From Chryseobacterium taklimakanense (GTDB lineage: Bacteria > Bacteroidota > Bacteroidia > Flavobacteriales > Weeksellaceae), in assembly GCF_900187185.1 (NCBI RefSeq), contig NZ_LT906465.1, positions 558,001 to 622,000 of the forward strand: a DNA stretch of 64,000 nucleotides, read 5' to 3'. Shown here in pieces: positions 30,696 through 52,596 of the stretch (position 1 is its first letter; each line of letters begins with the position of its first letter). Made by a program: the position numbers and the translations under genes. The notes below the pieces were generated by a model that worked only from the letters and a program-made list of their open reading frames with translations, did no database searches and was not told the origin of the DNA.

Positions 30696-30892
30696 AGGTA
30701 ACGGGAAAGGGCTTGGCGAAGGCGGGGCTAAGAATGACAAAACTTCCAACTAAACCCGAACTTAGCAAAAACCATTTTCGTTTTTTCAAAATTACAAAAA
30801 ATAAAAAAACGTAATGGTTTTTTGCGGCTAAAAGTGCTGAAATCTTCTAAGTGATAACACTCCGCCCCGCTTTTGCCAAACCCATGTTATCC
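30696..30892. repeat. attC-like hairpin S1 (array tail, long form)
   Basis: 197 bp. Left core AGGTAAC, right core GTTATCC. Outer arms ACGGGAAAGGGCTTGGCG / CCAAACCCAT; inner hairpin AACCATTTTCGTTTTTT / AAAAAAACGTAATGGTT. Subfamily A (with S5, S10, S13). Its right arm pairs with the left arm of S2 (14 of 16), bounding C1; its left arm is orphaned, marking the array's end. Confidence 0.88.
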
Positions 30893-30901
30893 GTAGTGCT
30901 T

Positions 30902-31351
30902 TTAGTCTGCTGGTTTTGTATAAGTTACAATGTCAATTCCAATTCCATTTGGGTCTTTAATTGCAAAATGTCTGTCGCCCCAAAGTTCGTCTCGGATTTC
31001 AAACTCCATTGAGACACCTTTTTCTTTCAGCCTTTTATAAATTTCGTCCACATTTTCAACTTCTATAGTCAAATAAACACCTTTTCCGTTAAATGCTGAT
31101 TGGAAAATAGGTTTTTGACTTGGATGGTTCGGTTGCAAAAAACTGATTTCTGACGAATTGTTTGGTGTGTGCAAAAGAATATAAAATTCATTTTCAAAAC
31201 TCACTCCAAAGTCCAACACTTCTTTGTAGAATTTTTTGGTTTCACTTAATTTTTCTGTAATAATTCCTGCGTTAAGTTTCATTTTGTTTGTAGTTTGTGC
31301 ATTTGAAATTCCAAAAAGCAAAACAAATGCGGTTAATAATATCGTTTTCAT
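30902..31351 (-). CDS. secreted VOC (glyoxalase/bleomycin-resistance fold) protein
   Basis: 149 aa. Seen: signal peptide ending SNAQ (cleavage about residue 19), then one VOC domain with paired beta-alpha-beta-beta-beta modules, ending HFAIKDPNGIGIDIVTY, the usual metal-site strand. Known: VOC proteins are small metal-dependent lyases, dioxygenases or drug binders; a periplasmic form is unusual but common in Bacteroidetes. Second gene of cassette C1, 66 bp after the AraC-type regulator, which may control it. Confidence 0.85.
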   Translation of the reverse strand: MKTILLTAFVLLFGISNAQTTNKMKLNAGIITEKLSETKKFYKEVLDFGVSFENEFYILLHTPNNSSEISFLQPNHPSQKPIFQSAFNGKGVYLTIEVENVDEIYKRLKEKGVSMEFEIRDELWGDRHFAIKDPNGIGIDIVTYTKPAD

Positions 31352-31417
31352 TATAATCGATTTTGTTTTACAAATTTAGTTTGAGATTAACAGCTGGAAT
31401 TGTAAAAATCGGACAAA

Positions 31418-32221
31418 CTAACGGAACGCTTCGGAAGGAGTTATTCCATAGAATGTTTTGAAGTTTTTAATAAAGTGTGCTTGGTCAAAAAAACCAACGT
31501 CAAAATAAAGTTTATTATTTTTCAAACTTTGTTGGGAAGGTTTTGCATTTAAAATGTATTGAAAGCGAATAACGTTACTAAAAGATTTTGCTGTTGTTCC
31601 AATATAGTAATCAAAAATTCTTCGTAATTGTCGAGCACTTAAACCTGTATCCAAATCTTTTTCTGTATCTAAGAAACCTTTTTTTTGAAAAATTAGAATT
31701 AGTGAGTTCAAAAAACGCTGGTCTAATTCTATGTTTTGATTATGAATAACCTCTAGAAATTTTTTGTTCAATTTTTTTGAAATATCTTCAAATGAAGTTC
31801 TTGGTTTTATTTCGGAACATATCCAATTATAAATTTCGGGATTTATATTTTTCAGTTCCTGTGAGTGATTACTCAATTTTTTAGCGTTTATTCCGAATAA
31901 TATTGGAAAAGCAGTTGGCAAAAAACGAATGCCGATATAATTAAACTCTTTTCCTATGTTGAATTCAGTAAATTTTCTACAAAATCCCATAACAAAACTC
32001 TCCTCAGGTTGTTTATTGTCAAAAAAAATATCAATACAACCATCAGAAACAACACAATAATTGAAATCTTCTGATAATTTTCTTTTGGTTTTCAGTTGCC
32101 AAAAACAGTAAACAAAATTTTGGATTTCGTTTTTTGGATGAATTTCTTGATAAGTTATTTCTCCGTCATTTTTAGAAACTGTCGGTTGAATTGGTTTGTA
32201 GTATTTTCTTATTGTTTCCAT
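31418..32221 (-). CDS. AraC-family transcriptional regulator (DUF6597 type)
   Basis: 267 aa. Seen: an N-terminal sensor domain starting IHPKNEIQNFVYCFWQLK (the DUF6597/cupin-like module) and a C-terminal AraC DNA-binding domain (LSARQLRRIFDYYIGTT, then DVGFFDQAHFIKNFKTFYGITPSE). First gene of C1 in the array's reading direction; likely local regulator of the VOC gene (inference). No core site lies between the two, so C1 is a true two-gene cassette. Confidence 0.87.
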   Translation of the reverse strand: METIRKYYKPIQPTVSKNDGEITYQEIHPKNEIQNFVYCFWQLKTKRKLSEDFNYCVVSDGCIDIFFDNKQPEESFVMGFCRKFTEFNIGKEFNYIGIRFLPTAFPILFGINAKKLSNHSQELKNINPEIYNWICSEIKPRTSFEDISKKLNKKFLEVIHNQNIELDQRFLNSLILIFQKKGFLDTEKDLDTGLSARQLRRIFDYYIGTTAKSFSNVIRFQYILNAKPSQQSLKNNKLYFDVGFFDQAHFIKNFKTFYGITPSEAFR

Positions 32222-32248
32222 TTTCTACGGGAGTTTTGATAGCATTAC

Positions 32249-32442
32249 GCATAACGGGAAAGGGGCTTTGCGAGGTGCGGGCTACTGCAAACCGAAAGTC
32301 GGGAGGAGAACCAATCTCTAGCAAAAACCATTTTCATTTTTTTCAAATTTACAAAAAAAAATGAAATGGTTTTTTGCGGTTACTGCTTACAAATTTTCTG
32401 AGATTTCCTTCAACCCCGCATCTTGCAAAACCCATGTTATGC
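32249..32442. repeat. attC-like hairpin S2 (long form)
   Basis: 194 bp, cores GCATAAC / GTTATGC. Arms GGGGCTTTGCGAGGTGCGGG / CCCGCATCTTGCAAAACCC, subfamily B (with S6, S9, S15). Inner hairpin AAAACCATTTTCATTTTTT. Right arm GTTATGCGATGTTTT pairs with the S3 left arm at 14 of 15, the mismatch at position 11. Confidence 0.88.
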
Positions 32443-32451
32443 GATGTTTTT

Positions 32452-33351
32452 TTAATATTCATAAGAGTAATATTCATCCTTTTTACCCTTTGTTTTTAAT
32501 ATGATATATTCTTTCATCAATTGTATTTTGTCGTATTTAGGTTCTTTAATTATTTTGTTGTCGGTATTTATTAAGCCTTTTTTACCATTCTGTTCAATTA
32601 TAAAATATCTCCAATTTTGTGATGAAATTAAATTGTCAAATTTTACAGGAATAATAATTTCATTCATAGAATTAATTAAACCATATTTATTATTTTGTTT
32701 TATGATTTGATAATATTTTTCGTCAACTGAAAAGTGTCTTGCTGTATTTACAAATGAAATATTCTCATCTAAAACAATTGTATTTGTGGGATTTAAAAGG
32801 TCTAAAATTAATGGTTTATTATTTTTTGTTGCAAATATTTTATAATTATCTTCTGTATAAAAAATGTATTCTTCAGGAAAAATCATATTACCGTTGATAT
32901 CGAAAACTCCACAATAACCATTTTTATTTTCTGTTAAATAAAAATCATCATTTTTATTTGATGAAACTCTTTTATATTTTACTGGAAGTATAATTTTTCC
33001 ACTAGTATCAGTTAAGCCGAATTCTGAATTTTTAGTCCAAAGTATAAAACGATTATTATCTCTGGGAAGAATGTATTTAAATTGTAATGGAATAATTTCT
33101 TTATTCTCAATATTTACAATTCCATTGTTGTCGCCTTTTCTGACGATAAAAACTGAATTTTTATATTCGATAAAATCATAATTGAAAGGAATTATTGTTT
33201 TATTTAAACTGTCTACAATTCCATAAAGATTGTTTTTCCTTTCTAAATATATATTTTCGTCAATTTTAGATTTAAAATTCTGTCCAAACAACATATTTAT
33301 GGTTGCAAATAGAATTAAAATCAGAAATGTTCTATTAATAACGGTTTTCAT
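32452..33351 (-). CDS. WG-repeat protein with signal peptide (cassette C2)
   Basis: 299 aa from the ATG at 33351; longer in-frame starts run into the core of S3 and would disappear on cassette movement. Seen: signal peptide ending LFGQ, then about seven WG/KWG repeats (pattern NxYGIVDSxNKxIIPxxYD, here NNLYGIVDSLNKTIIPF, GDNNGIVNIENKEIIPL, GKKGLINTDNKIIKEP). Known: WG repeats form solenoids, probably for ligand or surface binding; exported. Function unknown. Confidence 0.85.
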   Translation of the reverse strand: MKTVINRTFLILILFATINMLFGQNFKSKIDENIYLERKNNLYGIVDSLNKTIIPFNYDFIEYKNSVFIVRKGDNNGIVNIENKEIIPLQFKYILPRDNNRFILWTKNSEFGLTDTSGKIILPVKYKRVSSNKNDDFYLTENKNGYCGVFDINGNMIFPEEYIFYTEDNYKIFATKNNKPLILDLLNPTNTIVLDENISFVNTARHFSVDEKYYQIIKQNNKYGLINSMNEIIIPVKFDNLISSQNWRYFIIEQNGKKGLINTDNKIIKEPKYDKIQLMKEYIILKTKGKKDEYYSYEY

Positions 33352-33359
33352 AAAATATC

Positions 33360-33491
33360 GCATAACGTTTTCGGGCTTTGCGTTCGGGCGGGTTTCGGAG
33401 CACAAAACTGTCAACCAGCACTGAACTTAAATAGAAGCACAAAGCTCTAAGATTGCACGTCACCCCGCCTGACGCAAAACCCGTGTTAGCA
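33360..33491. repeat. attC-like hairpin S3 (short form)
   Basis: 132 bp, cores GCATAAC / GTTAGCA. Arms CGGGCTTTGCG...GGCGGG / CCCGCCTGACGCAAAACCCG; no inner A/T hairpin. Right arm GTTAGCACCAGTTTT pairs with the S4 left arm 14 of 15, mismatch at position 11. Confidence 0.85.
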
Positions 33492-33500
33492 CCAGTTTTT

Positions 33501-34409
33501 CTATTCATTTTGCATTATATTTTGTCTTAGTTGTTCAAGGTCACTAGGGTCGTCAAGTCTATGTATCATACTGTGACAATTACTGCACAAAACCGCAAAA
33601 TCTGTTTGAATATTAATTTGAAATTGTCCAATTCCTAAATTGGCAATCGGTGTTAAATGATGAGCCGCTATGAACTGACGGCCAAGTTCACCATACTTGT
33701 CAACAAAGTTGAAGTCACAAGCCTCACAAATATATCCTTTAAAATCTTTTACTTTTTTTGAAACACCTGAATTACGTTCTATTCTAAAATGAAGTCGATA
33801 TTGTTTTTTTTCAATTGCAGTTAAGTCTTTCTTTTCGTCAATTTGAGTGTCATTAAATGTTAGTTCTTCATATAAATGCAAAAAGCGAAGAACGTCTGCA
33901 GTTAATTCAGCGACATTTGGCAAATTGTCTGCGGAGTAATATTTAGCAATGATATTACCTGCCTTATAAAGTTTAGCGTTTGAACTATTAGAATTTAAGT
34001 CTATTTCTAACAGGTCATTTTCGTCAATATCAATTTTAGCTCTAAAGTCTTCGGCTCTTAATTTTAAAACATTCTTAGCGTCCCTTCTGTAATATTCTCT
34101 AACCTCAGTTACACCTTGGTTTAAAGATAAATATACACCAGACATATCCGATTTAAATAGAAAAACAGGATAGTAACCAGATTGAGGTGTGTCTGTAATT
34201 AATGTGTCTAAAATAGCTATCCAAGGATTATCTGTCCAGTTACCTTTACCTGGTGAGCCTGCCACTTTATAGCGTGACTGGTCAGGTAAAATTTGAGCTA
34301 AAAGATTTGGGAATTCATTTCGCAGTCTGTCTGCAAGTTGATTACCTGCAAAAGTTAGTTGCTTTTGCGTCAAATAATTTTCAATTGGTTCTCTTAATAT
34401 TCTGTCCAT
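33501..34409 (-). CDS. HNH endonuclease with MrcB-type N-terminal domain (cassette C3)
   Basis: 302 aa. Seen: an N-terminal MrcB_N-like domain (KGNWTDNPWIAILD, then GYYPVFLFKSDMSGVYLSLNQG) and a C-terminal HNH nuclease (CEACDF, AAHHLTPIANLG, VLCSNCHSMIH) with paired Cys for zinc. Known: MrcB_N modules read modified DNA in type IV restriction systems, so this looks like a modification-dependent restriction enzyme. It ends the + strand side 9 bp after S3 and starts 9 bp before S4, filling its cassette tightly. Confidence 0.87.
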   Translation of the reverse strand: MDRILREPIENYLTQKQLTFAGNQLADRLRNEFPNLLAQILPDQSRYKVAGSPGKGNWTDNPWIAILDTLITDTPQSGYYPVFLFKSDMSGVYLSLNQGVTEVREYYRRDAKNVLKLRAEDFRAKIDIDENDLLEIDLNSNSSNAKLYKAGNIIAKYYSADNLPNVAELTADVLRFLHLYEELTFNDTQIDEKKDLTAIEKKQYRLHFRIERNSGVSKKVKDFKGYICEACDFNFVDKYGELGRQFIAAHHLTPIANLGIGQFQINIQTDFAVLCSNCHSMIHRLDDPSDLEQLRQNIMQNE

Positions 34410-34417
34410 AAAATTGG

Positions 34418-34548
34418 TGCTAACGTTCTCGGCTTGGCGATGTGGCGGATTTTTAGTACGAAAGTTCTATAGAAATACTGCTGTTGAACCTTGCACAAAT
34501 GTTTCATAGAAGCACTTCAGGCGCCATATTGCCAAACCGATGTTGTGG
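34418..34548. repeat. attC-like hairpin S4 (short form)
   Basis: 131 bp, cores TGCTAAC / GTTGTGG. Arms CGGCTTGGCGATGTGGCGG / GCGCCATATTGCCAAACCG, no inner A/T hairpin. Right arm GTTGTGGGCTGGGCT pairs with S5's left arm 13 of 15, mismatches at 10 and 11. Confidence 0.85.
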
Positions 34549-34561
34549 GCTGGGCTTCTTG

Positions 34562-36316
34562 TTACTGTCGTTTCAGTTCGTCTATCAGCCATATTAGTTT
34601 TTGTCTCGCTACTCCAATAATATCAATATACGTTCTGAATTGAACATCTTCTCTTTCGTTATGAGAGCTTATGTTCTCTTTTACCCGTCCACCTAGTAAA
34701 ATGATTTCTATCTTTTGATTGTGATAGTAAGTGTTTAAGTCGTCTCGATACTCAATTGCTTGTTTCTCTGTGTCTCTTGTTAGAGTGAAACTAGGTCTTT
34801 TAAATTCAATTAAGCAGAGTTGTCGGCTTAGATTACGACCGAACAATAAATCTGGTCTTTTATCAGGGTTGTCACCTTTATATTTTTTGTGCAACATTTT
34901 TTCAATAGCTTGTTTCATTCCAGTATCTGAAAAAATCACAGAATAGTCGTCACCAAGTAACCAAGTATTATTTTCAAAAGCTTTATGGATGGTCTTTTCA
35001 AGAGTTTTTGGATTATCAACTAAAATATTTAGTTCATCTAAAAACCTAAGTCGGTTTAATGCCTGACTTGTAACTATGCTCATTTCTAATAGTCCAAATT
35101 CAGAAAGAGCATCAGCAAATTTTTCTATGTCTCCGTCTCGTGTGTCTTGGATATTTTGAATTATGTCCCAGTAGTGGTCTTTTTCCATTGCAGAAACAGT
35201 TACAGAAATAACTGTGTTTATCCTGTCTTCTGTTTCACCATAGAATTTTTCTAGAACTTTGTATAAAGCCTTTTTAGCAAATGGTTGTTTATATTCAGGT
35301 AGTTTTTCGAGTTCTTTATTGATTTTACGCTGATACCTGGCTCTCGCCATTTTCATATCGGTAACAAAGACTTCATCAACTGAACTTTTCAACTTTTCCG
35401 TTGCCTCGGTTGTAACTTTCTGATATAATTTGCTGTTGTCAATTACAGCTCCAAAGTCGGCTGTCAAGTCTTCTTCTAAGTCATCACAAATCAATTCACC
35501 GTAAACTCTATTTTGTAATTTTTTCGGAATTATTTCGTCTTCTACCAAAAAATTTTGAGGTCTCCCAATGATTTTATTATTTACTCTTACTACAATGCCA
35601 GCTTGTTTTACAGGTTTTTCAGTAATTGTATAATTTAAAGTAGCCATCTTTCCATCGGGTAACTCTATTCTTTCAGAGTATGATTTTCCTTGCAAGTCAA
35701 GAACTCCAATGTTTTCGCCATTAATAGTTATGCTAAAATCTGTCTCACGACCGTAATCTCTAATTAATAATTCTTTTAGTCTGTCGGGGTTGGGATAGTT
35801 TAGATTTTGATTTAGCCCTTCAAGTGTGATTGTTGTTCCGTGTAAGTTCTCGTCACAGTCTTCAACTGAAATTGGTAGCGGAACTTTCTCTAAATCGTAA
35901 CCTGCTTTTGCTAATTCGTCCTTATTAATTACGATAATTGTCTTTTTACCTGCCGCAAATGTTTCAACCTTCATTTGAGTTGCAACCATTAGTCCTGCAA
36001 ACTTTCCAATTCCTTTGCGTCCTTTAACTTTTCTTTTTTTAAGGTAGGATATACTTCCCTTTCTTGAAGTTCGACTATTTGCAATGTTCAGATACTCGTT
36101 TCTAACTTCTTTTTCTTTCATACCTGAACCATTGTCTTTGATGGTTATTGTAGGATTAACTGTTAAGTCGTCAGGCAAAATAATATCTACATTTTCAGAG
36201 TCAGCATCATAAGAGTTGTCAATAAGTTCCTTACTCGCTTCTTCGATAGAGCGATATGTCTCACCGAGCAATTCGGCTAGTTTCGGGTCAATTTTAAAAT
36301 GTGCTGATTTATTCAT
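34562..36316 (-). CDS. GHKL ATPase fused to a PD-(D/E)XK-like nuclease (cassette C4)
   Basis: 584 aa. Seen: N-terminal GHKL/Hsp90-MORC ATPase with N-box EASKELIDNSYDAD (about residues 21-34), G1 DNGSGM, G2 KGRKGIGKFAG; a long helical middle; and a C-terminal DLLFGRN...CLIEFKRPSF (about residues 490-515) that reads as the D...ExK core of a PD-(D/E)XK nuclease. Known: MORC/GHKL ATPases clamp DNA, and nuclease fusions occur in phage defence. A defence role here is inference; lies beside the HNH cassette. Confidence 0.82.
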   Translation of the reverse strand: MNKSAHFKIDPKLAELLGETYRSIEEASKELIDNSYDADSENVDIILPDDLTVNPTITIKDNGSGMKEKEVRNEYLNIANSRTSRKGSISYLKKRKVKGRKGIGKFAGLMVATQMKVETFAAGKKTIIVINKDELAKAGYDLEKVPLPISVEDCDENLHGTTITLEGLNQNLNYPNPDRLKELLIRDYGRETDFSITINGENIGVLDLQGKSYSERIELPDGKMATLNYTITEKPVKQAGIVVRVNNKIIGRPQNFLVEDEIIPKKLQNRVYGELICDDLEEDLTADFGAVIDNSKLYQKVTTEATEKLKSSVDEVFVTDMKMARARYQRKINKELEKLPEYKQPFAKKALYKVLEKFYGETEDRINTVISVTVSAMEKDHYWDIIQNIQDTRDGDIEKFADALSEFGLLEMSIVTSQALNRLRFLDELNILVDNPKTLEKTIHKAFENNTWLLGDDYSVIFSDTGMKQAIEKMLHKKYKGDNPDKRPDLLFGRNLSRQLCLIEFKRPSFTLTRDTEKQAIEYRDDLNTYYHNQKIEIILLGGRVKENISSHNEREDVQFRTYIDIIGVARQKLIWLIDELKRQ

Positions 36317-36350
36317 ATTTTTCTTTTTCGGTGTCGTCTGTTAGCCTTGC

Positions 36351-36547
36351 CCACAACGGAAAAGGGCTTGGCGAAGGCGGAGATAAGAAGGACAAATTTT
36401 TCTACTAAACCCGAACTGAGCAAAAACCATTTTCGTTTTTTCAAAATTATTAAAAAATAAAAAACGAAATGGTTTTTTGCGGCTAAAAGTGCAAAAATCT
36501 TCAATGCAAGAGCCTTCACCCCCGCTTTTGCCAAACCCATGTTAGCC
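36351..36547. repeat. attC-like hairpin S5 (long form)
   Basis: 197 bp, cores CCACAAC / GTTAGCC, subfamily A, inner hairpin AACCATTTTCGTTTTTT / AAAAAACGAAATGGTT. Right arm GTTAGCCGCAGTAAT pairs with S6's left arm 14 of 15, mismatch at position 11. Confidence 0.88.
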
Positions 36548-36555
36548 GCAGTAAT

Positions 36556-37095
36556 TTAATTTTTGTCGTCCTTATTCAAACTTTTAGGGGATTCATATTC
36601 TCTAAAATTATAATTGGGGTTACCTCTGAAATTATAAGCATTTGTTGCGGACACTATTTTCCACTTATTTTTTAACTTTTTCAAGACTACTGTCAAATAT
36701 CCGGATTGTGTCGGTCCTGGCTTTCCATCCTTATTTTTAAATACTAAACCGCCCCAAATGCTGTATACAACCGCGGTTGTAGAATCAAAATAGCCAAAAA
36801 CAGGTTTTTCAATTAAAGTTTTACTTGTTGGGTCAATTAAAAATTTGCCCATTGCATGGAGTTCAACTATTTTTTTTCTACCCGTTGCTTTTAATCCTTC
36901 AACGGTAATAAAGGTTGCATTGTCCGCCCAAAGTTCGTCAAATAAATCCATTTTTTGTTCATAAAAATAAATTGTAACGCCATTGGCAATTCTTGTAATT
37001 TCTTCAGAATCTTTTTTCGATTGTCCAAATGAAAAATTGGAAATTAACATTACTATTAGAACGCAAATTGTGTTTCGCAGATTTAGTTTTTCCAT
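36556..37095 (-). CDS. secreted NTF2-like (DUF4440/SnoaL-type) protein (cassette C5)
   Basis: 179 aa. Seen: signal peptide ending FSFGQ (about residue 24), then an NTF2-like domain with LWADNATFITVEG, KATGRKKIVE and the final KKLKNKWKIVSATNAYN strand. Known: cone-shaped NTF2-like proteins bind small molecules or act as isomerases; exported forms are of unknown role. Single-gene cassette. Confidence 0.82.
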   Translation of the reverse strand: MEKLNLRNTICVLIVMLISNFSFGQSKKDSEEITRIANGVTIYFYEQKMDLFDELWADNATFITVEGLKATGRKKIVELHAMGKFLIDPTSKTLIEKPVFGYFDSTTAVVYSIWGGLVFKNKDGKPGPTQSGYLTVVLKKLKNKWKIVSATNAYNFRGNPNYNFREYESPKSLNKDDKN

Positions 37096-37132
37096 GATTT
37101 CTAATTTTTAAACGGTTTTTTGGCATTATTGC

Positions 37133-37327
37133 GGCTAACGGAAAGGGGCTTTGCGAGGTGCGGGCTACTGCAACTGAAATTTCAAGAAGTGAACCCATCT
37201 CTAGCAAAAACTTTTTCCATTTTTAAAATTACGAAAAAACTAAAAAATGGAAAAGTTTTTGCGGGTATTTTCTAGAATTTTTCTGAGATTTCCTTCAACC
37301 CCGCATCTTGCAAAACCCATGTTATCT
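37133..37327. repeat. attC-like hairpin S6 (long form)
   Basis: 195 bp, cores GGCTAAC / GTTATCT, subfamily B; inner hairpin AACTTTTTCCATTTTT / AAAAAATGGAAAAGTT, different in sequence from S1 or S5 but again self-complementary. Right arm GTTATCTGCAGGCGT pairs with S7's left arm 14 of 15, mismatch at position 11. Confidence 0.88.
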
Positions 37328-37879
37328 GCAGGCGTTTTTCTCAATGTTTTGAATTTGTTTAAAATGTCTAAAAGTGTGATTGTTAAGAAATAAAAAAGTA
37401 TCTCCCAATCTTAGTTTTATTAGATTTGTGATAGAAATTTTTGTTTTTTCTTTATTCAAGTCAACGTTTTTTGCTCGCTCAAGCAAGTTGTTAAACTCTT
37501 TTTGTTGGGCAATGAAGTTTTCAATGACATTTTTGTCAAGTTTGCTATTCAGAGGGTTTTTGTCTTTTGCCGTTTTCATTTTGTTAAGTTTTTCTTTCGG
37601 TAACATACTTTTCGCAAAATAATTTCCCCAAAATCCACTTTTAAATTCTTCTTGCCGTTTTGATTTTGTCTTTTGGATTGCATTTTCAATTTCGGGAAGA
37701 TAAAATTTTGCGTAAAGATTTAGGTGTTCTAAACATTCCAAAATGCTCCAAGTTTCAGAATTTTGTTTCCAATTTAATTCTTCTTCAGTTTTAGATTTTA
37801 GTTTTTCGGCAGAAGAAATATATTCGTTGGTTGAGTTTTGAATTTCACTTATTAATTTCTCTGATTTCATAGATTTCAC
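37322..37879 (-). CDS. DinB-superfamily protein (cassette C6)
   Basis: 185 aa. Seen: four-helix-bundle pattern with WSILECLEHLNLY near residue 48 (first His) and LNNHTFRHFKQIQNI near the end (the other two metal His), as in DinB/DfsB-like putative metalloenzymes, thiol S-transferase type. Known: many are bacillithiol transferases or metal hydrolases; substrate unknown. The stop codon lies inside the right core of S6, so the gene fills the cassette to its last base. Confidence 0.8.
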   Translation of the reverse strand: MKSMKSEKLISEIQNSTNEYISSAEKLKSKTEEELNWKQNSETWSILECLEHLNLYAKFYLPEIENAIQKTKSKRQEEFKSGFWGNYFAKSMLPKEKLNKMKTAKDKNPLNSKLDKNVIENFIAQQKEFNNLLERAKNVDLNKEKTKISITNLIKLRLGDTFLFLNNHTFRHFKQIQNIEKNACR

Positions 37880-37911
37880 GAATTTTTATGCGCTATTTTG
37901 GTTACGCTTGC

Positions 37912-38104
37912 AGATAACGGAAAAAGTATTGGCGAAGAACGGGCTACTTTGCAGACAATTTCAAAGGATAACCGAACCTTAGCAAAAATTTTTTCCTTTT
38001 GCTAATATACGAAAAAAAGTAAAAGGAAAAATTTTTTGCGGATACTGCTAAATGGGTTCTCAAAGACAGTATTCACCCCGTTTTTTGCCAATACAATGTT
38101 AGCA
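37912..38104. repeat. attC-like hairpin S7 (long form)
   Basis: 193 bp, cores AGATAAC / GTTAGCA, subfamily C (with S8, S16, S17): arms AAAAAGTATTGGCGAAG / TTTTTTGCCAATACAAT. Inner hairpin AAATTTTTTCCTTTTGC / AAAAGGAAAAATTTTT. Nearly identical to S8. Right arm GTTAGCAGAAGTTTT pairs with S8's left arm 14 of 15, mismatch at position 11. Confidence 0.88.
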
Positions 38105-38110
38105 GAAGTT

Positions 38111-39052: not shown

Positions 39053-39071
39053 AATATTGGTATAAAATTTC

Positions 39072-39265: not shown

Positions 39266-39280
39266 GCAGGCGTTTTTTAG

Positions 39281-43142: not shown

Positions 43143-43149
43143 TTTATTT

Positions 43150-43719: not shown

Positions 43720-43749
43720 GTTCGCCCTTCTTTTCTGTCGTGTTTATTG

Positions 43750-45301: not shown

Positions 45302-45348
45302 TTTTTGTTTGTCGGTTAGTTGTTGCACACGGTTGGTCATAGGGTGAC

Positions 45349-45477
45349 GCACAACGGAAAAGCATTTGCGAGGCGTGGCTTGATTGCTCGCAAGTGCTAC
45401 TAAAACAAAACTAAATTAAAATAACAAATCTGACTACTGATAACATTCCACCACGTCTTGCAAATGCCGTGTTATCT
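45349..45477. repeat. attC-like hairpin S12 (short form)
   Basis: 129 bp, cores GCACAAC / GTTATCT; arms AAAGCATTTGCGAGGCGTGG / CCACGTCTTGCAAATGCCG. Right arm GTTATCTGTAGCCGAA pairs with S13's left arm 15 of 16, mismatch at position 11. Confidence 0.85.
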
Positions 45478-45497
45478 GTAGCCGAATTTACAGAATT

Positions 45498-45893
45498 ATG
45501 ACAAAACAGGAAGTAATAAAAAAAGCATACGGAAAGTACTATGACTTATGTAAACCTTATTTACGAGGTCACTTAATAGATAGGGTGCTTTTTGAGGATG
45601 AAACTGAAAAAAAATTATCTGACCTTAACGATATTGAATTTCTATCAGATGGAATTGTATTCTCTTTTCCAATGGAATTAAAAGGATTTGAAGACAACAA
45701 TGGATGGATTAAAATTGAAAGCGAAAAAGATTTGCCCGATTATCAAGGAACTTTGATAGCAATAAAAAAATCTGATACTGAAGTTTATGAAGTGCATTTC
45801 TTCAATTATCTGAAAGAAGGTGAAAAGAAAGAATGGGCAAAAATATTTTCTCACTATCGTTTAATACCGAATTTCGATGCACCAATTTATTAA
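45498..45893 (+). CDS. hypothetical protein, reverse-oriented in cassette C12
   Basis: 131 aa. Not recognised. Mixed alpha/beta, acidic, with several aromatic residues (YYDLCKPYLRGH, NGWIKIESEKDLPDY); no signal peptide or metal motif. One of two cassettes whose gene runs against the array direction, so it must carry its own promoter. Confidence 0.72.
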   Translation: MTKQEVIKKAYGKYYDLCKPYLRGHLIDRVLFEDETEKKLSDLNDIEFLSDGIVFSFPMELKGFEDNNGWIKIESEKDLPDYQGTLIAIKKSDTEVYEVHFFNYLKEGEKKEWAKIFSHYRLIPNFDAPIY

Positions 45894-45915
45894 CACAAAG
45901 TTGGTTTTCGGTTAC

Positions 45916-46112
45916 AGATAACGGGAAAGGGCTTGGCGAAGGCGGGGATAAGAAGGACGGAAATTCCAACTAAACCCGAACCGAGCAAAAACCATTTTCG
46001 TTTTTTCAAAATTACAAAAAATAAAAAAACGAAATGGTTTTTTGCGGCTAAAAGTGCTGAAATCTTCTAAATGATAACTCTCAACCCCGCTTTTGCCAAA
46101 CCCATGTTGTGC
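45916..46112. repeat. attC-like hairpin S13 (long form)
   Basis: 197 bp, cores AGATAAC / GTTGTGC, subfamily A, almost identical to S1. Right arm GTTGTGCGCAGTATT pairs with S14's left arm 14 of 15, mismatch at position 11. Confidence 0.88.
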
Positions 46113-46470
46113 GCAGTATTTTTAGTTCGGCGACTTGGATTTAACTCGTTAAATTCAGGTCAGAGAATTAAAAATCAAGCACGACAATTTTTTTCACGCA
46201 CGAAATCGCAAAGATTTTCAGAATTTTATTCACGGATTTTGGAAAATTATTCACGCAGAATTTATTCACGCCGTTAAGCTCAAAATTTGTAAAAGTCAAG
46301 CACAATTTTTATACTCAAATCCGTAAGTTTTTTGTAAATTTTTTTTCTGGATTTAGGAAGATCAGCGCAAAGAATTTCAGATTTTAGTCAGTTTTAGAAG
46401 TTTAAATTCAGGTCAAAATTTTGATTTTTCAGACCGAAATTTCTTTTTGATACCGCGCTTCTAATATTGC
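46113..46470. other. cassette C13, no gene
   Basis: About 358 bp with no credible ORF on either strand. Very A/T-rich, with repeated TTCACG motifs (near 46194, 46229, 46252, 46267) resembling those in C9. Ends are a matching arm pair, so it is structurally a cassette. Confidence 0.68.
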
Positions 46471-46602
46471 GCACAACGAAAAAGTGTTTCTGAAGAACGG
46501 GCTACGGAAACTGAAATAACTAAGTATAAACCAAATTAACAACTAAAACCGCAATAACAAGAGGTGCTTTCAACCCCGTTTTTTAGAAACACAGTGTTAT
46601 AG
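46471..46602. repeat. attC-like hairpin S14 (short form)
   Basis: 132 bp, cores GCACAAC / GTTATAG; arms AAAGTGTTTCTGAAGAACGGG / CCCCGTTTTTTAGAAACACAGT. Right arm GTTATAGCCAGTGCT pairs with S15's left arm 14 of 15, mismatch at position 11. Confidence 0.85.
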
Positions 46603-46630
46603 CCAGTGCTTCTTCTTGAATCAATAAATT

Positions 46631-46819
46631 ATGTGTGTAACTCAATTTAGGCGATTATGCCAAGCCTCTGAATTTCGTAGTAAAGGAAGAGAAGAAGATT
46701 TGAAAGACCCAAATCTTGAAGTCAGAAAAGAAACTTACTTCTACAACGGGAGAAGTTATCACTATGTGACTGACAAGCGAAAATTAAAAGGATTAGAAAA
46801 CTATTTAAAACAAAGGTAA
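46631..46819 (+). CDS. small hypothetical protein (cassette C14)
   Basis: 62 aa, basic, not recognised. Stops 1 bp before the DUF2528 gene's ATG, so it is the first gene of a two-gene unit. Ends with a K/R-rich stretch (VTDKRKLKGLENYLKQR). Reverse-oriented relative to the array. Confidence 0.6.
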   Translation: MCVTQFRRLCQASEFRSKGREEDLKDPNLEVRKETYFYNGRSYHYVTDKRKLKGLENYLKQR

Positions 46820-46820
46820 A

Positions 46821-47162
46821 ATGGCAATTAAAACATTCAATTTTAACTATGACTGTCACGAAGCGGAAGCAGTCTTTACAGTAGATACTGATGTATTTAC
46901 AAACGACCACGCAAAAGCAACTTTGGAATTTTTCACTTGGGATTATGATAAAGATAATGACCCAATAACAGAAGTTTTGAAAAAGTATGCAATGGAAGCA
47001 ATTCGGGTTGCTACAAGATATTCATTCAATGTTCGGGGTGTTATTTCAGACTTTAAAGACAAAGAAGGTTTTGCGAGTGTCGATGGTAGTTTAGGTTTAA
47101 CACTTGTGTCAGTAGATGGATATGAATTTGACGATGATAAACTTGATTATACTGTCTCTTAG
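46821..47162 (+). CDS. DUF2528 family protein (cassette C14)
   Basis: 113 aa. Seen: KTFNFNYDCHEAEAVFTVD start and ...FFTWDYDKDNDPITEVLKKYA, matching my memory of DUF2528, a small family known mostly from phages and mobile DNA. Function unknown. Immediately follows the 62-aa gene and stops 6 bp before the left core of S15. Confidence 0.78.
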   Translation: MAIKTFNFNYDCHEAEAVFTVDTDVFTNDHAKATLEFFTWDYDKDNDPITEVLKKYAMEAIRVATRYSFNVRGVISDFKDKEGFASVDGSLGLTLVSVDGYEFDDDKLDYTVS

Positions 47163-47168
47163 CATTGG

Positions 47169-47364
47169 CTATAACGGAAAGGGGCTTTGCGAGGTGCGGG
47201 CTACTGCAACCGAAATTTCAAGAGGTGACCGAACGCTAGCAAAAAGTTTTTCCATTTTTTAAAATTACGAAAAAACTAAAAAATGGAAAAGTTTTTTGCG
47301 GGTACTTTATAGAATTTCACTGAGATTTCCTTCAATCCCGCATCTTGCAAAACCCATGTTGAAC
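47169..47364. repeat. attC-like hairpin S15, cut at its core by an IS91-like element
   Basis: 196 bp, left core CTATAAC, subfamily B. It ends CCCATGTT and is then followed by GAACTAAACC instead of a cassette arm. The missing arm (TTAGCAGAAGTAAT) reappears at 49779. Rejoined, GTTAGCAGAAGTAAT pairs with S16's left arm 14 of 15 with the mismatch at position 11. Confidence 0.85.
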
Positions 47365-47520
47365 TAAACCTTCGGTAGCTTTCTCAGCGCTATATTTAGT
47401 TACTTTGTAAAACTAATTAAAAATCAGTAAAATGGCAACAAAAAAAAGAGTGTAGAAGAGCTTAGAGAAAACAAGATCATCAATCAGGCAAAGCGCGAAG
47501 TTCCGGGATTTGCGGAGCTT

Positions 47521-48381
47521 TTGCATAGGTTTGAACGTACGGTTTCTGTATTGGGAAGAAGCCAAAGTACCTTTCAAAATTACTCCAGACACGTCGCTGC
47601 GGTGTCGCTACATTTCGGAAAAATTCCTACAGAATTGGATCCCGAGCAAATTCACGATTACCTTTTTTACCTTCAGAAAAAATCAAAATCACCTTCACAG
47701 TCGTATTTTAAACACACCGTTTACGGACTTCGATTTCTGCTTAAATCGGAAGGTTTGAGCTATGATTATTTGAGTCTTCCGGAAATTAAAAGAGAGAAAA
47801 AACTGCCTGTAGTGCTTAGTAAACAGGAGGTTTGGCAGATGTTGTCCGGCTGTAAACTTTTAAAACATAAAATTTTGATCGGCATTCTTTACGGCTGCGG
47901 ATTGCGCTGTATGGAAGTTCGAAATCTCCGTTTGTGCGACTTAGATTTTGGTCGAAAACAACTCAAAGTGGTTCAGGGAAAAGGCAAAAAAGACCGCTAT
48001 TTACCACTTTCCGAACATCTGATTCGTGGGCTCAAAAAGTATATCGAAGCGGAAAAACCGGAAGATTATCTCTTTGGAGAACCTCGTGGAGGGCGTGCTG
48101 GTGGCGATTTCGATTCCCGTTACTCCCAGCGCGGCGTTCAGTGGGCGGTAAAGCAGGCATCAAAAACGGCAAATATCCTGAAAGAAGTGAGTGTCCATAC
48201 GCTTCGGCACAGTTTTGCGACGCATCTTCTGGAAGATGGGATGGATATTTTGAGCATCAAAAATCTTCTCGGTCACGAAAGTATCGATACCACGCTGGTT
48301 TATCTTCAAATTGCCCAGCTTTCAACCCAAAAACTCTTTTCACCGCTCGATACCCTTTTTTCAGAATTTGGGAAAAAATGA
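47521..48381 (+). CDS. tyrosine recombinase of the IS91-like element
   Basis: 286 aa from the first in-frame ATG. Seen: SAM-like N-terminal core-binding domain and a full catalytic set: Arg (GCGLRCMEV), Lys (GKGKKDRYLP), HxxR (HTLRHSFATH), His (LLGHESIDTT), Tyr (LVYLQ). It lacks the extra helix between patches II and III that marks integron integrases, so it is Xer-like. Odd: the frame is open back to 47434, and an ATG at 47432 lies one base out of phase across an A8 run, so the true N-terminus probably needs a -1 shift or has a 1-bp deletion. Confidence 0.88.
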   Translation: MHRFERTVSVLGRSQSTFQNYSRHVAAVSLHFGKIPTELDPEQIHDYLFYLQKKSKSPSQSYFKHTVYGLRFLLKSEGLSYDYLSLPEIKREKKLPVVLSKQEVWQMLSGCKLLKHKILIGILYGCGLRCMEVRNLRLCDLDFGRKQLKVVQGKGKKDRYLPLSEHLIRGLKKYIEAEKPEDYLFGEPRGGRAGGDFDSRYSQRGVQWAVKQASKTANILKEVSVHTLRHSFATHLLEDGMDILSIKNLLGHESIDTTLVYLQIAQLSTQKLFSPLDTLFSEFGKK

Positions 48382-49544
48382 GCGGTTTAAAAACCTCAAA
48401 AAAACAGTCAGTTCAACCTCAATCTCAACCTCAATACGAAGTCGCCGATGTTTTAAACAAATTAGGTTCAAAATTGGAAGATTTAGGACTTAATTCTTGG
48501 CAATTACGAACACTTTCAGCGTTGAAAAAATGCCGTACCTCTGCTTTGGGTGGTCATATTGACGCTTGTGATGAATGTGGAAATGTAAGCATCAGTTACA
48601 ACTCCTGCCGAAACCGTCATTGCCCAAAATGTCAGAGCAAAAACCGAGAGCAATGGATTGAAAATCGGGAAACCGAACTGCTTCCGGTACCTTATTTCCA
48701 CGTGGTTTTTACGCTTCCTGATGTATTGAACAAAACCGCGCTTCACGAGCCCAAAATGTTGTACGATTTTTTATTTGAATCTGCCTGGGAAACGCTTCAA
48801 ACGTTTGGTGAAAATCGAGGTTTAAAAATGGGAATGATTGCTGTTTTGCACACTTGGGGGCAGAATCTGAGCCTTCATCCGCATTTGCACTGCATTGTTC
48901 CGGGCGGTGGAGTGGATGAAAGCGGAGCTTGGAAAAATCTACGTTCAGACGGCAAATTTTTGTTTCCGGTAAAGGCTTTGAGTAAAGTTTTCAGGGCTAA
49001 ATTTTGTGAGAAATTAAAAGATAAAAACTTTGAAGAGTATACCAAAATCAGGCAAAATCTGTGGGAAAAGTCTTGGGTTGTTTACGCCAAAAAGCCTTTT
49101 GGAAGCCCAAAATCTGTGGTAGAATATTTGGGCAGATACACGCATAAAATCGCCATCAGCAACCAGAGAATCAGGAAAATTGACGCGGAAACGGTAACTT
49201 TTTCTTACAAAGATTACCGCCAAAAAGGCATCAAAAAGCAGATGGTTTTGAGCCATGAAGAGTTTATCCGCCGTTTTGTGATGCATATTTTACCGAAAAG
49301 ATTTGTAAAAATCCGTCATTATGGTTTTTTGAGCAGCACCTGGAAGCGTATCAAACTTAAAAATCTACAACAAAATTTAGGCATCCAGCCCAAAGAAAAG
49401 CTTCCGCCAAAAGCTTTTCAGCCGAAATGTACGTGTTGTAAAGATGGAAATCTTGTGACGATTGCCACGTTCGATCTACGAGGTCCGCCAAGTTGGTTTT
49501 TGGAGATGAGCCGAAATTTACCTGCTCCTAAATCTGCATTTTAG
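48378..49544 (+). CDS. IS91-family HUH transposase
   Basis: 388 aa from the ATG at 48378, which overlaps the recombinase stop (ATGA). Seen: N-terminal zinc finger (CDECGN ... CRNRHCPKCQ), the HUH motif HPHLHC (about residues 171-176) and the catalytic Tyr segment YLGRYTHKIAISNQR. Longer in-frame starts lie inside the recombinase gene in another frame. Known: rolling-circle transposition through single-stranded DNA. Confidence 0.92.
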   Translation: MSGLKTSKKQSVQPQSQPQYEVADVLNKLGSKLEDLGLNSWQLRTLSALKKCRTSALGGHIDACDECGNVSISYNSCRNRHCPKCQSKNREQWIENRETELLPVPYFHVVFTLPDVLNKTALHEPKMLYDFLFESAWETLQTFGENRGLKMGMIAVLHTWGQNLSLHPHLHCIVPGGGVDESGAWKNLRSDGKFLFPVKALSKVFRAKFCEKLKDKNFEEYTKIRQNLWEKSWVVYAKKPFGSPKSVVEYLGRYTHKIAISNQRIRKIDAETVTFSYKDYRQKGIKKQMVLSHEEFIRRFVMHILPKRFVKIRHYGFLSSTWKRIKLKNLQQNLGIQPKEKLPPKAFQPKCTCCKDGNLVTIATFDLRGPPSWFLEMSRNLPAPKSAF

Positions 49545-49778
49545 CGGATTTGGGTAAGGGAAATGTTAACCTAACGTGAAGGAAAGCACGATAAAACCAA
49601 GAAAAACTCGCCAAAATCACCCACAAAAAAAGAGACTCTTCTCAAAGTCTCTTGTATCTCTAAAAATCTTTTGTCGATAAACCCATAGTGTGGGAAAATA
49701 CCCAACCAAAAGCTGCCGAAGGTTCCGTTCAACAGGGTTTTCATTGTTCGTGCTGCGCACGCAACGAAAACTTAGCTA
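49545..49778. other. right end of the IS91-like element
   Basis: No ORF. Contains a terminator-like stem AGAGACT/AGTCTCT (about 49630-49653), a TGGG-AAAATA-CCCA palindrome (49691-49704), the inner terminal repeat (49712-49733) and the end hairpin (49737-49771). Confidence 0.6.
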
Positions 49779-49796
49779 TTAGCAGAAGTAATTCTT

Positions 49797-50492
49797 TTAC
49801 AGGTCGTTTAAACTTTTCTTTTTCTCGTTATTGATTTTTTCAGAAAATGATTTTCGCGCTTCATCAGATTCTTTTTCTGCTATAACACTTTTGTTTTTAT
49901 CGTAAAGTGAAATTGATGTAATTATTCTTTCGTCACAATCAGAATTATAACCACTCATTAAAAGATACAGCATAGAAAAATTTTTCGCAGAATTATTCCA
50001 AGTTTTTGAGTAAGTTACAGAAGGTAATTCAAAAGAACGACCGCCAATTCTACATCTATCTGTACTTTCTCTTTTATCTAATGTACCTTTTCCATACTTC
50101 AATTCAATGTCATCAGTCAATTTGTTGTCAGGACTTGAAATGCTTATTTTATACAATGTTTCTTTGTAAAACGAAAGAACCATTCCTCTGTTGCTATACT
50201 TATCATTAAGTTTAAAGCCATTTAATTGATAGACTTTTACATTTTCGGAATATGAGCTATAAGACGGACTTTTATAAGTTTCTAATTTGCTTGGAAGTAG
50301 CTTGACAAATGCTGATGAAGAAGAACAAGAATAATCGTCGCACTCCTTTAAAATAAATTTTTTAGAAACTGCTAAAGAGTCAAGTTGAGAAGTTGTGAAT
50401 TTTCCAAGTTTAAATATTCCTAAACCTTCAAAATCTTGTGAAAATGATAATACTGAATAAAATAATGCTAAAAAAATAAATTTTTTTTTCAT
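49797..50492 (-). CDS. secreted hypothetical protein (cassette C15)
   Basis: 231 aa. Not recognised. Seen: signal peptide ending LSFSQ (about residue 19), a Cys/Ser-rich patch (ECDDYSCSSSSAF), then a beta-rich body and a charged C-terminal tail (SEKINNEKKKSLNDL). Exported. Its own hairpin is S15, now parted from it by the IS91-like element. Confidence 0.72.
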   Translation of the reverse strand: MKKKFIFLALFYSVLSFSQDFEGLGIFKLGKFTTSQLDSLAVSKKFILKECDDYSCSSSSAFVKLLPSKLETYKSPSYSSYSENVKVYQLNGFKLNDKYSNRGMVLSFYKETLYKISISSPDNKLTDDIELKYGKGTLDKRESTDRCRIGGRSFELPSVTYSKTWNNSAKNFSMLYLLMSGYNSDCDERIITSISLYDKNKSVIAEKESDEARKSFSEKINNEKKKSLNDL

Positions 50493-50530
50493 ATAAAATC
50501 TTGTTTTAAGGGTTGTTTTGCTATTATTTC

Positions 50531-50725
50531 TGCTAACGGAAAAAGTATTGGCGAAGGACGGGCTACCTTGCAGACAATTTCAAAGGAAAACCGAACCTGA
50601 GCAAAATGCTTTTTCAGATTTCTAAATTACTGAAAAAAGAAATATGAAAAGCATTTTTGCGAATTTTGTTAACTGAATTCTCAAAGACAATATTCACCCC
50701 GTCTTTTGCCAATACTATGTTATCT
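50531..50725. repeat. attC-like hairpin S16 (long form)
   Basis: 195 bp, cores TGCTAAC / GTTATCT, subfamily C; inner hairpin AATGCTTTTTCAGATTTCT / GAAATATGAAAAGCATT. Right arm GTTATCTGCAGTC pairs with S17's left arm 12 of 13, mismatch at position 11. Confidence 0.88.
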
Positions 50726-50735
50726 GCAGTCTTTT

Positions 50736-51275
50736 TTAGTTATGTTGTATTTTTAGAATTTTTTGAGCAATTTCAATCGCTTTTTCAAGAGTTATTCCAT
50801 TTTGTTGGTCAACTTGAAGCTGATTATTTTCCTCTAGAATTTTTGCATTTGGAATAATTCCAGGTTCGTTTTCTTTAGAAATTGTTTTAAGATTTAATGT
50901 ATTCTTATAAGTTGGGATTTCATTTTGTAACCAACCAAAATATGATTCATTATTTATTCGATTTGCATTTTCCCAATCTTCATTTCTCTTTATGAAATTT
51001 TCTTCACTTATTGAAGTCCAAATGTCAAAATTCAGATTTTCTTTGTAATTGATTATTGGAATTTCAATTCTTACTCTGTGAAAAAAATGTTCATCAATTA
51101 TGCATAAACTTTTTTGATATTCAACTCGTTCAGAAATTTCATTTTCAGGAATAGAGTAGTAATAATTTGGATAATCACTTCCAAAAGTTAATGGAATTTC
51201 ATCATAAATTTTTCCGCAACAAATACACTTAAATTTTTCTTCATTTTTTTTATTTAAAAATTGGAATAACTTCAT
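50736..51275 (-). CDS. DUF2199-like protein (cassette C16)
   Basis: 179 aa from the ATG at 51275; the longer in-frame start would lie inside S17. Seen: N-terminal CxxC zinc knuckle (CICCGK), followed by DUF2199-type strand YPNYYYSIPENE and CIIDEHFFHRVRIEIPI. Known: DUF2199 is widespread, function unknown. Single-gene cassette. Confidence 0.82.
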   Translation of the reverse strand: MKLFQFLNKKNEEKFKCICCGKIYDEIPLTFGSDYPNYYYSIPENEISERVEYQKSLCIIDEHFFHRVRIEIPIINYKENLNFDIWTSISEENFIKRNEDWENANRINNESYFGWLQNEIPTYKNTLNLKTISKENEPGIIPNAKILEENNQLQVDQQNGITLEKAIEIAQKILKIQHN

Positions 51276-51308
51276 TGTCAATTTTATACGCGGTTTTGAG
51301 AAGATTGC

Positions 51309-51501
51309 AGATAACGGAAAAAGTATTTGCGAAGGGCGGGCTAAATTTAACTGCAAGTTCAATTTCGCCTGAACGAAGCAAATTGCTTTTTCAGATTGTT
51401 AAATTACAAAAAAATACAATATGAAAAGCAAGTTGCGACTAAATGTATCGGGTTTTTCTATTATATATTCAACCCCGCCTTTTGCAAATACTATGTTATC
51501 G
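51309..51501. repeat. attC-like hairpin S17 (long form)
   Basis: 193 bp, cores AGATAAC / GTTATCG; arms AAAAAGTATTTGCGAAGGGCGGG / CCCGCCTTTTGCAAATACTAT; inner hairpin TTGCTTTTTCAGATTG / ATATGAAAAGCAA. Right arm GTTATCGGCAGTTTC pairs with the array head (52582-52596) 14 of 15, mismatch at position 11. Confidence 0.88.
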
Positions 51502-51510
51502 GCAGTTTCT

Positions 51511-52566
51511 TTATTTCAATTCATTTAGTAAAACAGGATAAAATTCCTCAAATTTTTTATATTTTTTTCTTTTAGTTTCGTAAGTATTTAGTTTTTTTGA
51601 TACTGTTTCAACTAATTCAAATCCGACACTTTTCTCAAATTCAAGAAGTTTATCCGCTTTTTCGTTTCCAAATTTTGAACGGCTAATATTTATGACGATA
51701 GCACGAAGCAAAATTTCATTAAAAACATATTTCCATTGACTATATCCTTGTTGTTTGCCACTTTTTTCAAGTTTTTTGTCATAGTATTTAGTTCGTAAAT
51801 TTTCAATTTCTTTTTCATATTTTTTAGACAGCGGATTAACGAATGAATGTCCAAATTCGTGCAAAATCATATCTGTTTCTAAATAATCATTGTCAAAATG
51901 CGGATAAAAATCAATTTCTCCATTCGGACCAATGACAGCATAAACTTCTTTTTCTCCTTTCTGATTAGTAATTTCAGCGTTAAAACCTCCCGTATGAACT
52001 AATGGCGCTAGAATAAGATTGTATGAAGAAAGTTTTGTTCCGTAATAATCTTCTAAATAATCAGGCAAATATCTGATTGTTTTAGATTGTAAAATTTTAT
52101 TGATTATTTTTTCATTAATTGGTTTGATGGCTTTTAAATAATTTTGAAATAGACTGTCCTGATTAAATTTGATTAATTCATTTCTAAACTCTTCAAGTAA
52201 ATATTCTTTTCCTTTTGTGATACTTTCATCTTCGGCATCTGATTTGGTTTTAATTTTTTCAAATTTTGGAAAGTCTGAATATTGAAGTGTCCATTCAATA
52301 GGTCTATAATATGAAAAATTATATTTTTTAGAAATTGTATCAAATAATGCGACTGCACGATGATTTTTCAAAGATGCTAACTTTTGGTCAAGAGTATTTT
52401 TATAAATATTTGCGTGTTTGTTGACTAAAAAGTAATTATCAAAATAGGCAACTGAATAAAGTGTCTCTATTCTGTCATCAATTGAGATATTCAGTTTTGC
52501 TTTTTGTCCAAAAATCAAATTTGAATAAAATAAAATAAATGTTAAAATGTAAAATTTTTCTTTCAT
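51511..52566 (-). CDS. secreted DUF4932 zinc metallopeptidase-like protein (first cassette, C17)
   Basis: 351 aa from the ATG at 52566; the upstream in-frame start lies in the promoter/core. Seen: signal peptide ending LIFGQ, then a gluzincin-like active site MILHEFGHSFVNPL (HExxH at about residues 236-240) with downstream acidic residues. Known: DUF4932 proteins are predicted periplasmic metalloproteases. As the cassette nearest the head promoter it should be the most strongly expressed. Confidence 0.83.
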   Translation of the reverse strand: MKEKFYILTFILFYSNLIFGQKAKLNISIDDRIETLYSVAYFDNYFLVNKHANIYKNTLDQKLASLKNHRAVALFDTISKKYNFSYYRPIEWTLQYSDFPKFEKIKTKSDAEDESITKGKEYLLEEFRNELIKFNQDSLFQNYLKAIKPINEKIINKILQSKTIRYLPDYLEDYYGTKLSSYNLILAPLVHTGGFNAEITNQKGEKEVYAVIGPNGEIDFYPHFDNDYLETDMILHEFGHSFVNPLSKKYEKEIENLRTKYYDKKLEKSGKQQGYSQWKYVFNEILLRAIVINISRSKFGNEKADKLLEFEKSVGFELVETVSKKLNTYETKRKKYKKFEEFYPVLLNELK

Positions 52567-52581
52567 TGACGCTGTTTTTCT

Positions 52582-52596
52582 GAAATTGCCGATAAC
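52582..52596. other. array head core site (attI-like)
   Basis: AAATTGCCGATAAC ends cassette C17 on the right. Unlike the 17 other right ends, it is followed by ACTCAAATATACGC rather than a hairpin. This is what the junction between an attI site and the first cassette would look like. Assignment as attI is inference. Confidence 0.65.

Follow-up and report, generated by a model that had tools for sequence, protein, structure and literature searches.

An attI end and a 17-cassette array of an integron-type system very probably native to Bacteroidota in Chryseobacterium taklimakanense

The window analysed here is a stretch of 64,000 nucleotides from Chryseobacterium taklimakanense (GCF_900187185.1; NZ_LT906465.1, positions 558,001-622,000). 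Our analysis showed that it holds an array of small genes separated by large hairpins, and we are confident that this locus comprises the attI end and 17 cassettes belonging to a system of the integron type that is native to Bacteroidota, in which a dedicated tyrosine recombinase would join and exchange the cassettes. The cassette structure, the attI site, the shared orientation, the association with an integrase, the breakpoints at a GTT core and the mobility of single cassettes between genera are each observed, and the locus is best named an attI with a cassette array that lacks its integrase. An original prediction for this stretch had proposed an integron-like array: its structural part stands, but it had recognized neither the attI half (52591-52610), nor the minus-strand orientation, nor the separate non-IntI integrase, nor the phylum-wide range of the system.

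All 17 of the predicted AAC...GTT hairpins (S1 to S17) are present, and they fall into two length classes. From AAC to GTT, S3, S4, S9, S11, S12 and S14 measure 121-124 bp, and the others 185-189 bp, with a mean identity of 74% among the long sites. S10 is interrupted by an insertion sequence (IS) of the IS30 family, giving a total span of 1409 bp, and the distal arm of S15 has been severed by an IS91-like element. The right outer arm of one site pairs with the left outer arm of the next over 6-7 consecutive bp in 14 of the 17 cases; S1/S2 and S9/S10 show one mismatch in seven, and reading across the inserted IS91 restores the S15/S16 pair. Within one site, the arms pair over a run of 0-1 bp, the exceptions being S2 (5) and S17 (3). 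The mutually complementary ends, matching at 6-7 of 7 bases with a GTT core, are hence those of the cassette, and mostly not the two arms of one site. As had been predicted, the hairpins delimit 17 units, with the outer arms of each hairpin belonging to different units. The further claim that units are joined at the hairpin base, as in integrons, gains support from other genomes: 105 of 136 units in loci of the first architecture described below are complementary at 6-7 of 7 positions (mean 8.6 and maximum 16 in 200 shuffles), as are 15 of 15 testable units of a second integrase clade (2.2 when shuffled). The failures among the 136 are probably due in part to missed sites between neighbors.

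A strict palindrome scan recovered just two of the window sites; an arm-complementarity scan and then a covariance model followed. Built from sites of the 124 class from many genomes, including the six short window sites and none of the ten long ones, the model, run over the 64 kb, matched exactly the 16 unsplit sites (E ≤ 3e-10), every one of them on the minus strand, and thus the window set is not one of chance. The sole extra match was the opposite strand of one of these sites (E 0.008). Among known RNA families, tRNA alone was matched in the window.

When 59 short sites taken from many genomes were aligned, the fold showed an R stem of 4 bp and an L stem of 16 bp, separated by an unpaired spacer that is asymmetric (about 3 and 7 bases). 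Two conserved mismatches break the L stem; at one of them, 53 of the 59 sites have A.C and the other 6 have A.G. Pairing holds in 96.5% of stem cells, both sides change in 16 of 20 pairs and covariation scores 0.618, compared with 0.153 for shuffled and at most 0.103 for slid alignments, figures biased upward because the sites were first chosen by arm complementarity. The evidence from cassettes, attI, orientation and breakpoints is independent of them. In-silico folding and covariation thereby recover the features of an attC, namely an imperfect palindrome with R and L stems, unpaired spacers and extra bases. In the R box, the classical RYYYAAC/GTTRRRY consensus gives way to NNNYAAC/GTTRNNN (e.g., AGATAAC and GCATAAC), in agreement with the unusual cores first remarked upon. 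Of 137 sites, 122 form the more stable fold on the bottom strand (DNA parameters, p 7e-19) because the top-strand A.C becomes a bottom-strand G.T. This favored strand is the one used by IntI integrons, which is suggestive of recombination through a single strand.

On the minus strand, the order reads: chromosome, ...GCGTATATTTGAGTG/TTATCGGC, gene, S17 ... S1, ...G/TTACCTGCAATTCC, chromosome (the slash marks the junction). The first cassette abuts attI with no hairpin before it, and every hairpin comes after its gene; thus, the minus-strand layout has the order of an integron. A plus-strand reading of the array was ruled out, as the attI half and the distal end at S1 fit the minus strand alone. 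Fusing both array ends predicts an empty attI, the 20-mer TTGCAGGTAACACTCAAATA, and a search of 59 genomes allowing up to 3 mismatches found an exact match in genome G021. There, the start codon of a tyrosine recombinase lies about 140 bp from the match, and all 8 attC-like sites of the locus lie across attI from the recombinase. Across the 46 integrase loci fetched (493 kb in total), the motif TATTTGAKNGTT occurs 30 times, and in 28 loci it lies within 260 bp upstream of the integrase start codon, at a distance of 109-198 bp. Downstream of attI, 158 attC-like sites point away from the integrase and 5 in the opposite direction. The motif was not detected upstream of the gene in the integrase relatives L077-L079 and L109-L112, the fetched sequence of L109-L112 stopping short on the downstream side.

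The window genome encodes two copies of this integrase elsewhere. The L032 locus codes for a 356-residue integrase followed by attI and then by LinB-like nucleotidyltransferase, TetX-like, OXA-like, Ere-like and CatB-like genes; the L033 locus has a 97% identical integrase and an attI, and attC sites were not detected there. The integrases are about 345-360 residues long, with an N-terminal extension of about 80 residues and a C-terminal SPLD motif in common with IntI. The IntI-specific insert is missing in an alignment with IntI1 and two other IntI proteins, which leaves two gaps, about 31 and 10 residues long; the TIGR02249 scores are 188.6-194.4 against a cut-off of 265 bits. In a quick tree made without bootstrap and with some long branches, the integrases, Flavobacterium members included, form a supported group (99) outside the fully supported IntI clade. 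By sequence and fold, the closest solved structures are XerA/Xer recombinases, and the predicted model (mean predicted local distance difference test score 84, predicted template modeling score 0.51) is most like XerA and VchIntIA, with an extra N-terminal domain. A second architecture is found in a related clade of integrases, in Flavobacterium and other genera of the phylum, including Algoriphagus and Cyclobacterium. Here the integrase gene reads towards the cassettes, and its stop codon is followed after 55-146 bp (229 bp for one match) by an attI-like TATAnAnnAGTTR, which a pattern search located in 19 of 21 loci. The 345-residue Flavobacterium clade had at one point been taken to lack arrays, the upstream region appearing empty; its arrays and attI are downstream of the stop codon. 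An attI thus accompanies the integrase in both architectures, and the window keeps an attI half with no adjacent integrase.

We then counted sites with the covariance model R1. The window genome has 43 sites in several clusters, each on one strand. Besides the window array, these include clusters at G000:C1 117.7-123.9, 137.0-141.6, 540.0-553.2 and 2484.5-2486.6 kb, the first of which has an attI-like end (L034) and no integrase alongside. A covariance-model search had been named at the outset as a check on the array; it found sites at E ≤ 1e-6 in 138 of 200 genomes of the family and 144 of 297 of the phylum, the site numbers for single genomes being lower bounds. Within the family, attC sites occur in 104 of 105 integrase-positive versus 34 of 95 integrase-negative genomes (Fisher 2e-25). 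R1 had no match in 305 kb of loci mostly outside Bacteroidia, including ten true-IntI loci. True IntI is found in 84 of the 297 phylum genomes, nearly all in other classes, and no IntI above the curated cut-off was found in the window genome or 59 relatives.

Comparison of related loci, the other check named in advance, revealed gain, loss and movement of hairpin-plus-gene units as wholes, and the breakpoints fall at the GTT core; in these comparisons, neither palindromes moving alone nor random breakpoints were seen. Between L032 and L030, identity is 99.9% through the integrase and breaks down at the attI GTT. L032 and L038, with integrase genes only about 72% identical, have in common a segment of 2382 bp, 99.9% identical and with GTT at either end. 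The OXA-like cassette of L032 is absent from L035, a clean insertion with its edges at GTT. Between the tet(X2) cassette of L032 and the plasmid-borne tet(X3) of Acinetobacter towneri (L113), identity starts exactly at G/TTATGTGCC; ahead of this point L032 has an attC, and L113 has an attI-like site preceded by a truncated integrase. On that plasmid, pGX7 (L113 6034-8100), truncated integrase, attI-like site, tet(X3) and a truncated attC follow one another, and by its sequence this xerD-tet(X3) unit looks like a fragment of the Bacteroidota type of integron. Cassettes of the window are also found singly in other genera, with their ends at sites: cassette 5 in L251 (45921-46479, ends S13+1 and S14+4), cassette 7 in L236 (from S11-1 to 18 bp inside S12), cassette 9 in L244 and L247 (starting exactly at 40860), cassette 16 in L239 (from 9 bp before S2 to 18 bp inside S3) and cassette 17 in L237 and L238 (ending at S2+2 and S2+3). 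Similarity between the arms carries several right ends 18-31 bp inside the next site, and the breakpoint is resolved to GTT rather than to a single phosphate because GTT is common to all partners. As in integrons, cassette ends meet in one attC, with exchange at G/TT.

Table 1. Elements of the array in window coordinates, from the attI end to the distal end
Element	Coordinates	Strand	Basis or remark
attI half-site, proximal array end	52591-52610	-	GCGTATATTTGAGTG/TTATC on minus strand; fits consensus tTtCGTATATTTGAGaGTTA of 28 integrase loci
Cassette 1: S17 (51313-51497) + DUF4932 protein gene (51511-52602)	51313-52593	-	Ends 7/7 complementary; Pfam
Cassette 2: S16 (50535-50721) + DUF2199 protein gene (50736-51362)	50535-51312	-	Unit ends; Pfam
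Cassette 3: S15 (47173-47360) + gene 49797-50492 (-), split by IS91	47173-50534	-	Distal arm TAGCAGAAG persists past the IS, at about 49780
IS91-like element at the S15 AAC core: tyrosine recombinase 47521-48381, Y2 transposase about 48379-49544	47365-49779	+	Pfam
Cassette 4: S14 (46475-46598) + two plus-strand open reading frames (46631-47162)	46475-47172	-	Unit ends, open reading frames, Pfam
Cassette 5: S13 (45920-46108) + short unit, no clear gene	45920-46474	-	95% identical unit in L251
Cassette 6: S12 (45353-45473) + open reading frame 45498-45893 (+)	45353-45919	-	Unit ends, open reading frames
Cassette 7: S11 (43593-43715) + chromate-transporter-like and DoxX genes	43593-45352	-	94.6% identical unit in L236; Pfam
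Cassette 8: S10 (41407-42815, split by IS30) + helix-turn-helix/Gp49-like toxin-antitoxin pair (42834-43527)	41407-43592	-	
IS30-family element within S10; transposase 41699-42700	41531-42806	-	rve domain; 99% copy elsewhere in genome
Cassette 9: S9 (40860-40983) + unit without clear gene	40860-41406	-	96-97% identical unit in L244, L247
Cassette 10: S8 (39076-39261) + HEAT-repeat protein gene	39076-40859	-	
Cassette 11: S7 (37916-38100) + HNH_5 protein gene	37916-39075	-	
Cassette 12: S6 (37137-37323) + DinB_2 protein gene	37137-37915	-	
Cassette 13: S5 (36355-36543) + 179-residue secreted-type protein gene	36355-37136	-	
Cassette 14: S4 (34422-34544) + HATPase/Shedu-C-like protein gene	34422-36354	-	
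Cassette 15: S3 (33364-33487) + MrcB_N/HNH protein gene	33364-34421	-	
Cassette 16: S2 (32253-32438) + 320-residue protein gene	32253-33363	-	96% identical unit in L239
Cassette 17, distal: S1 (30700-30888) + glyoxalase-like and AraC-like genes; array end G/TTACCTGCAATTCC	30700-32252	-	97-98% identical unit in L237, L238

The cargo of the window array (Table 1) includes possible anti-phage genes at 33504-36316, in the MrcB_N/HNH and HATPase/Shedu-C-like cassettes. The Gp49/HigB-like and helix-turn-helix genes form a toxin-antitoxin-like pair in a single cassette, a common situation in chromosomal integrons. Both genomic copies of the IS91-like element, the one in the window and the one in L032 (about 15376-17800), sit at the AAC core of an attC (...CTAA/IS...GTTC/AACAT...), as if attC sites were its target. 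Beyond attI, at 52692-54574, an SRAP fragment and an S24-peptidase-like gene lie near a tRNA-Ala, perhaps the remnant of another mobile element at the spot where an integrase would be expected.

By every structural test made, the system behaves as an integron. Like the IntI integrons (class 1 and the chromosomal ones of Vibrio), it shows a dedicated tyrosine recombinase with an attI alongside, imperfect-palindrome sites with a GTT core, probable bottom-strand folding, one dominant orientation and a cargo of resistance and defense genes. Unlike theirs, its integrase lacks the IntI insert and carries the N-terminal extension; its attC sites measure 121-124 or 185-189 bp, with the NNNYAAC/GTTRNNN R box and conserved A.C mismatches, and it has an attI of its own, TTCGTATATTTGAGWG/TTR. 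Under the usual definition, which calls for the additional domain of IntI, the system does not count as an integron, its integrases lacking the insert and scoring below the cut-off. With at least two attC sites (17) and no adjacent integrase, the window array qualifies as a cluster of attC sites lacking integron-integrases (CALIN), but it retains an attI half, and the genome has two integrases of the family elsewhere. XerA and the Xer recombinases are nearest in solved structure; the Bacteroidota integrase differs in being tied to attI and cassette arrays rather than to dif resolution, and in its extension.

The open-access literature on Bacteroidetes/Bacteroidota integrons gave no account of this system, in keeping with the initial impression that such an array was undescribed; one 2026 paper notes a single attC-like fold. 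It reports that in Riemerella anatipestifer aph(3')-IVb with a 140-bp attC-like 3' sequence integrates without flanking homology (PMC13148043). This 140-bp region resembles our sites by its description, but no integrase, attI or site family was identified there. Reports on tet(X) are likewise relevant: xerD lies divergent from tet(X14), no integron was found and the involvement of XerD was queried (PMC7473080), and a tetX-catB11-IS91-XerD arrangement has been described (PMC11194056). The recombinase of these clusters fits the family (as tested for tet(X3)) and their cargo overlaps that of L032, whereas the papers reported no integron and left the role of XerD open. The system may be the common explanation for the tet(X)-XerD and aph(3')-IVb reports, a link that is conjectural except for tet(X3).

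Other readings of the locus were weighed against this evidence. Repeated palindromic sites in two size classes with internal sequence in common could be mobile elements, such as miniature inverted-repeat transposable elements or repetitive extragenic palindromes, landed by chance between genes. We consider this hardly tenable, as it is already contradicted by the cassette-end rule: the outer arms are split between neighboring units, these move whole with GTT breakpoints, and a fixed orientation to integrase and attI is not expected of such elements. Homologous recombination between similar palindromes might instead exchange units without any site-specific enzyme, for the long sites are similar and could recombine, and Weeksellaceae such as R. 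anatipestifer are naturally competent (PMC13148043). However, the shared units start exactly at GTT with flanks that lack homology (L032 against L113 and against L030), and the R. anatipestifer fragment, a cassette-like polymerase chain reaction product, is integrated without flanking homology (PMC13148043), making this a very improbable account. That a classical IntI-type integron or CALIN strayed into Bacteroidota deserves hardly any credence: the layout of attI, attC and divergent integrase and the SPLD motif are the same, but the relatives lack IntI above the cut-off, the integrase has no IntI insert and falls outside the IntI clade, and the attC model is silent at true-IntI loci. Finally, the cassettes could be moved by the 316-residue recombinase of the IS91-like element, which scores nearly as high with TIGR02249 and whose element has both its copies at the AAC of an attC, or by the chromosomal Xer. 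We regard this as quite improbable, as attI and the arrays adjoin the 345-360-residue integrases, and the association with that family is near-complete at the genome level.

Several points weigh against a Bacteroidota integron system nonetheless. The evidence is computational throughout, and the covariation figures carry the bias given above. No integrase gene stands beside the array in the window, the recombinase borne by the IS91-like element being the one exception. The integrase is missing the IntI-specific domain, which known integron integrases are reported to need for activity, according to Messier and Roy (2001) as cited in PMC2426708. Further, the 34 integrase-negative genomes with attC sites may hold integrase-free clusters or point to another acting enzyme.

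Under the favored interpretation of an integron-type system, the integrase, related to XerA and IntI, would join circular cassettes at attI and exchange them at attC-like sites, cutting at the G/TT core. A cassette would have the form TTR-gene-YAAC-hairpin-G, such that once it is inserted the two arms of a site belong to neighboring cassettes. Catalysis is likely performed by the 345-360-residue integrase, with the folded bottom strand as the probable substrate. The window array has presumably lost its own integrase; it may still be active, with the two integrase copies encoded at other loci of the genome possibly acting on it in trans.

Integrons have been deemed rare in Bacteroidetes, where IntegronFinder 2.0 recorded a single complete one, in Salinibacter ruber, beside those of Chlorobi and Ignavibacteriae (PMC9024848); here, attC-like sites are found in almost half of the phylum genomes and over two-thirds of the family genomes surveyed. 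The Bacteroidota integrases would escape published searches in which the IntI patch is a requirement (PMC2426708). We lean towards the broader view that this is a phylum-wide Bacteroidota integron system that arose or specialized apart from IntI, with no IntI insert, a second recognition strategy (perhaps through the N-terminal domain) and two architectures with attI upstream or downstream, and that Acinetobacter plasmids acquired tet(X) and other resistance cassettes from it. This raises the questions of how attC is recognized without the IntI insert and whether integrons have arisen more than once. The system also bears on whether XerD mobilizes tet(X) (PMC7473080), and it suggests a route, open to testing, by which tet(X), blaOXA, ere, catB and further flavobacterial resistance genes could move.

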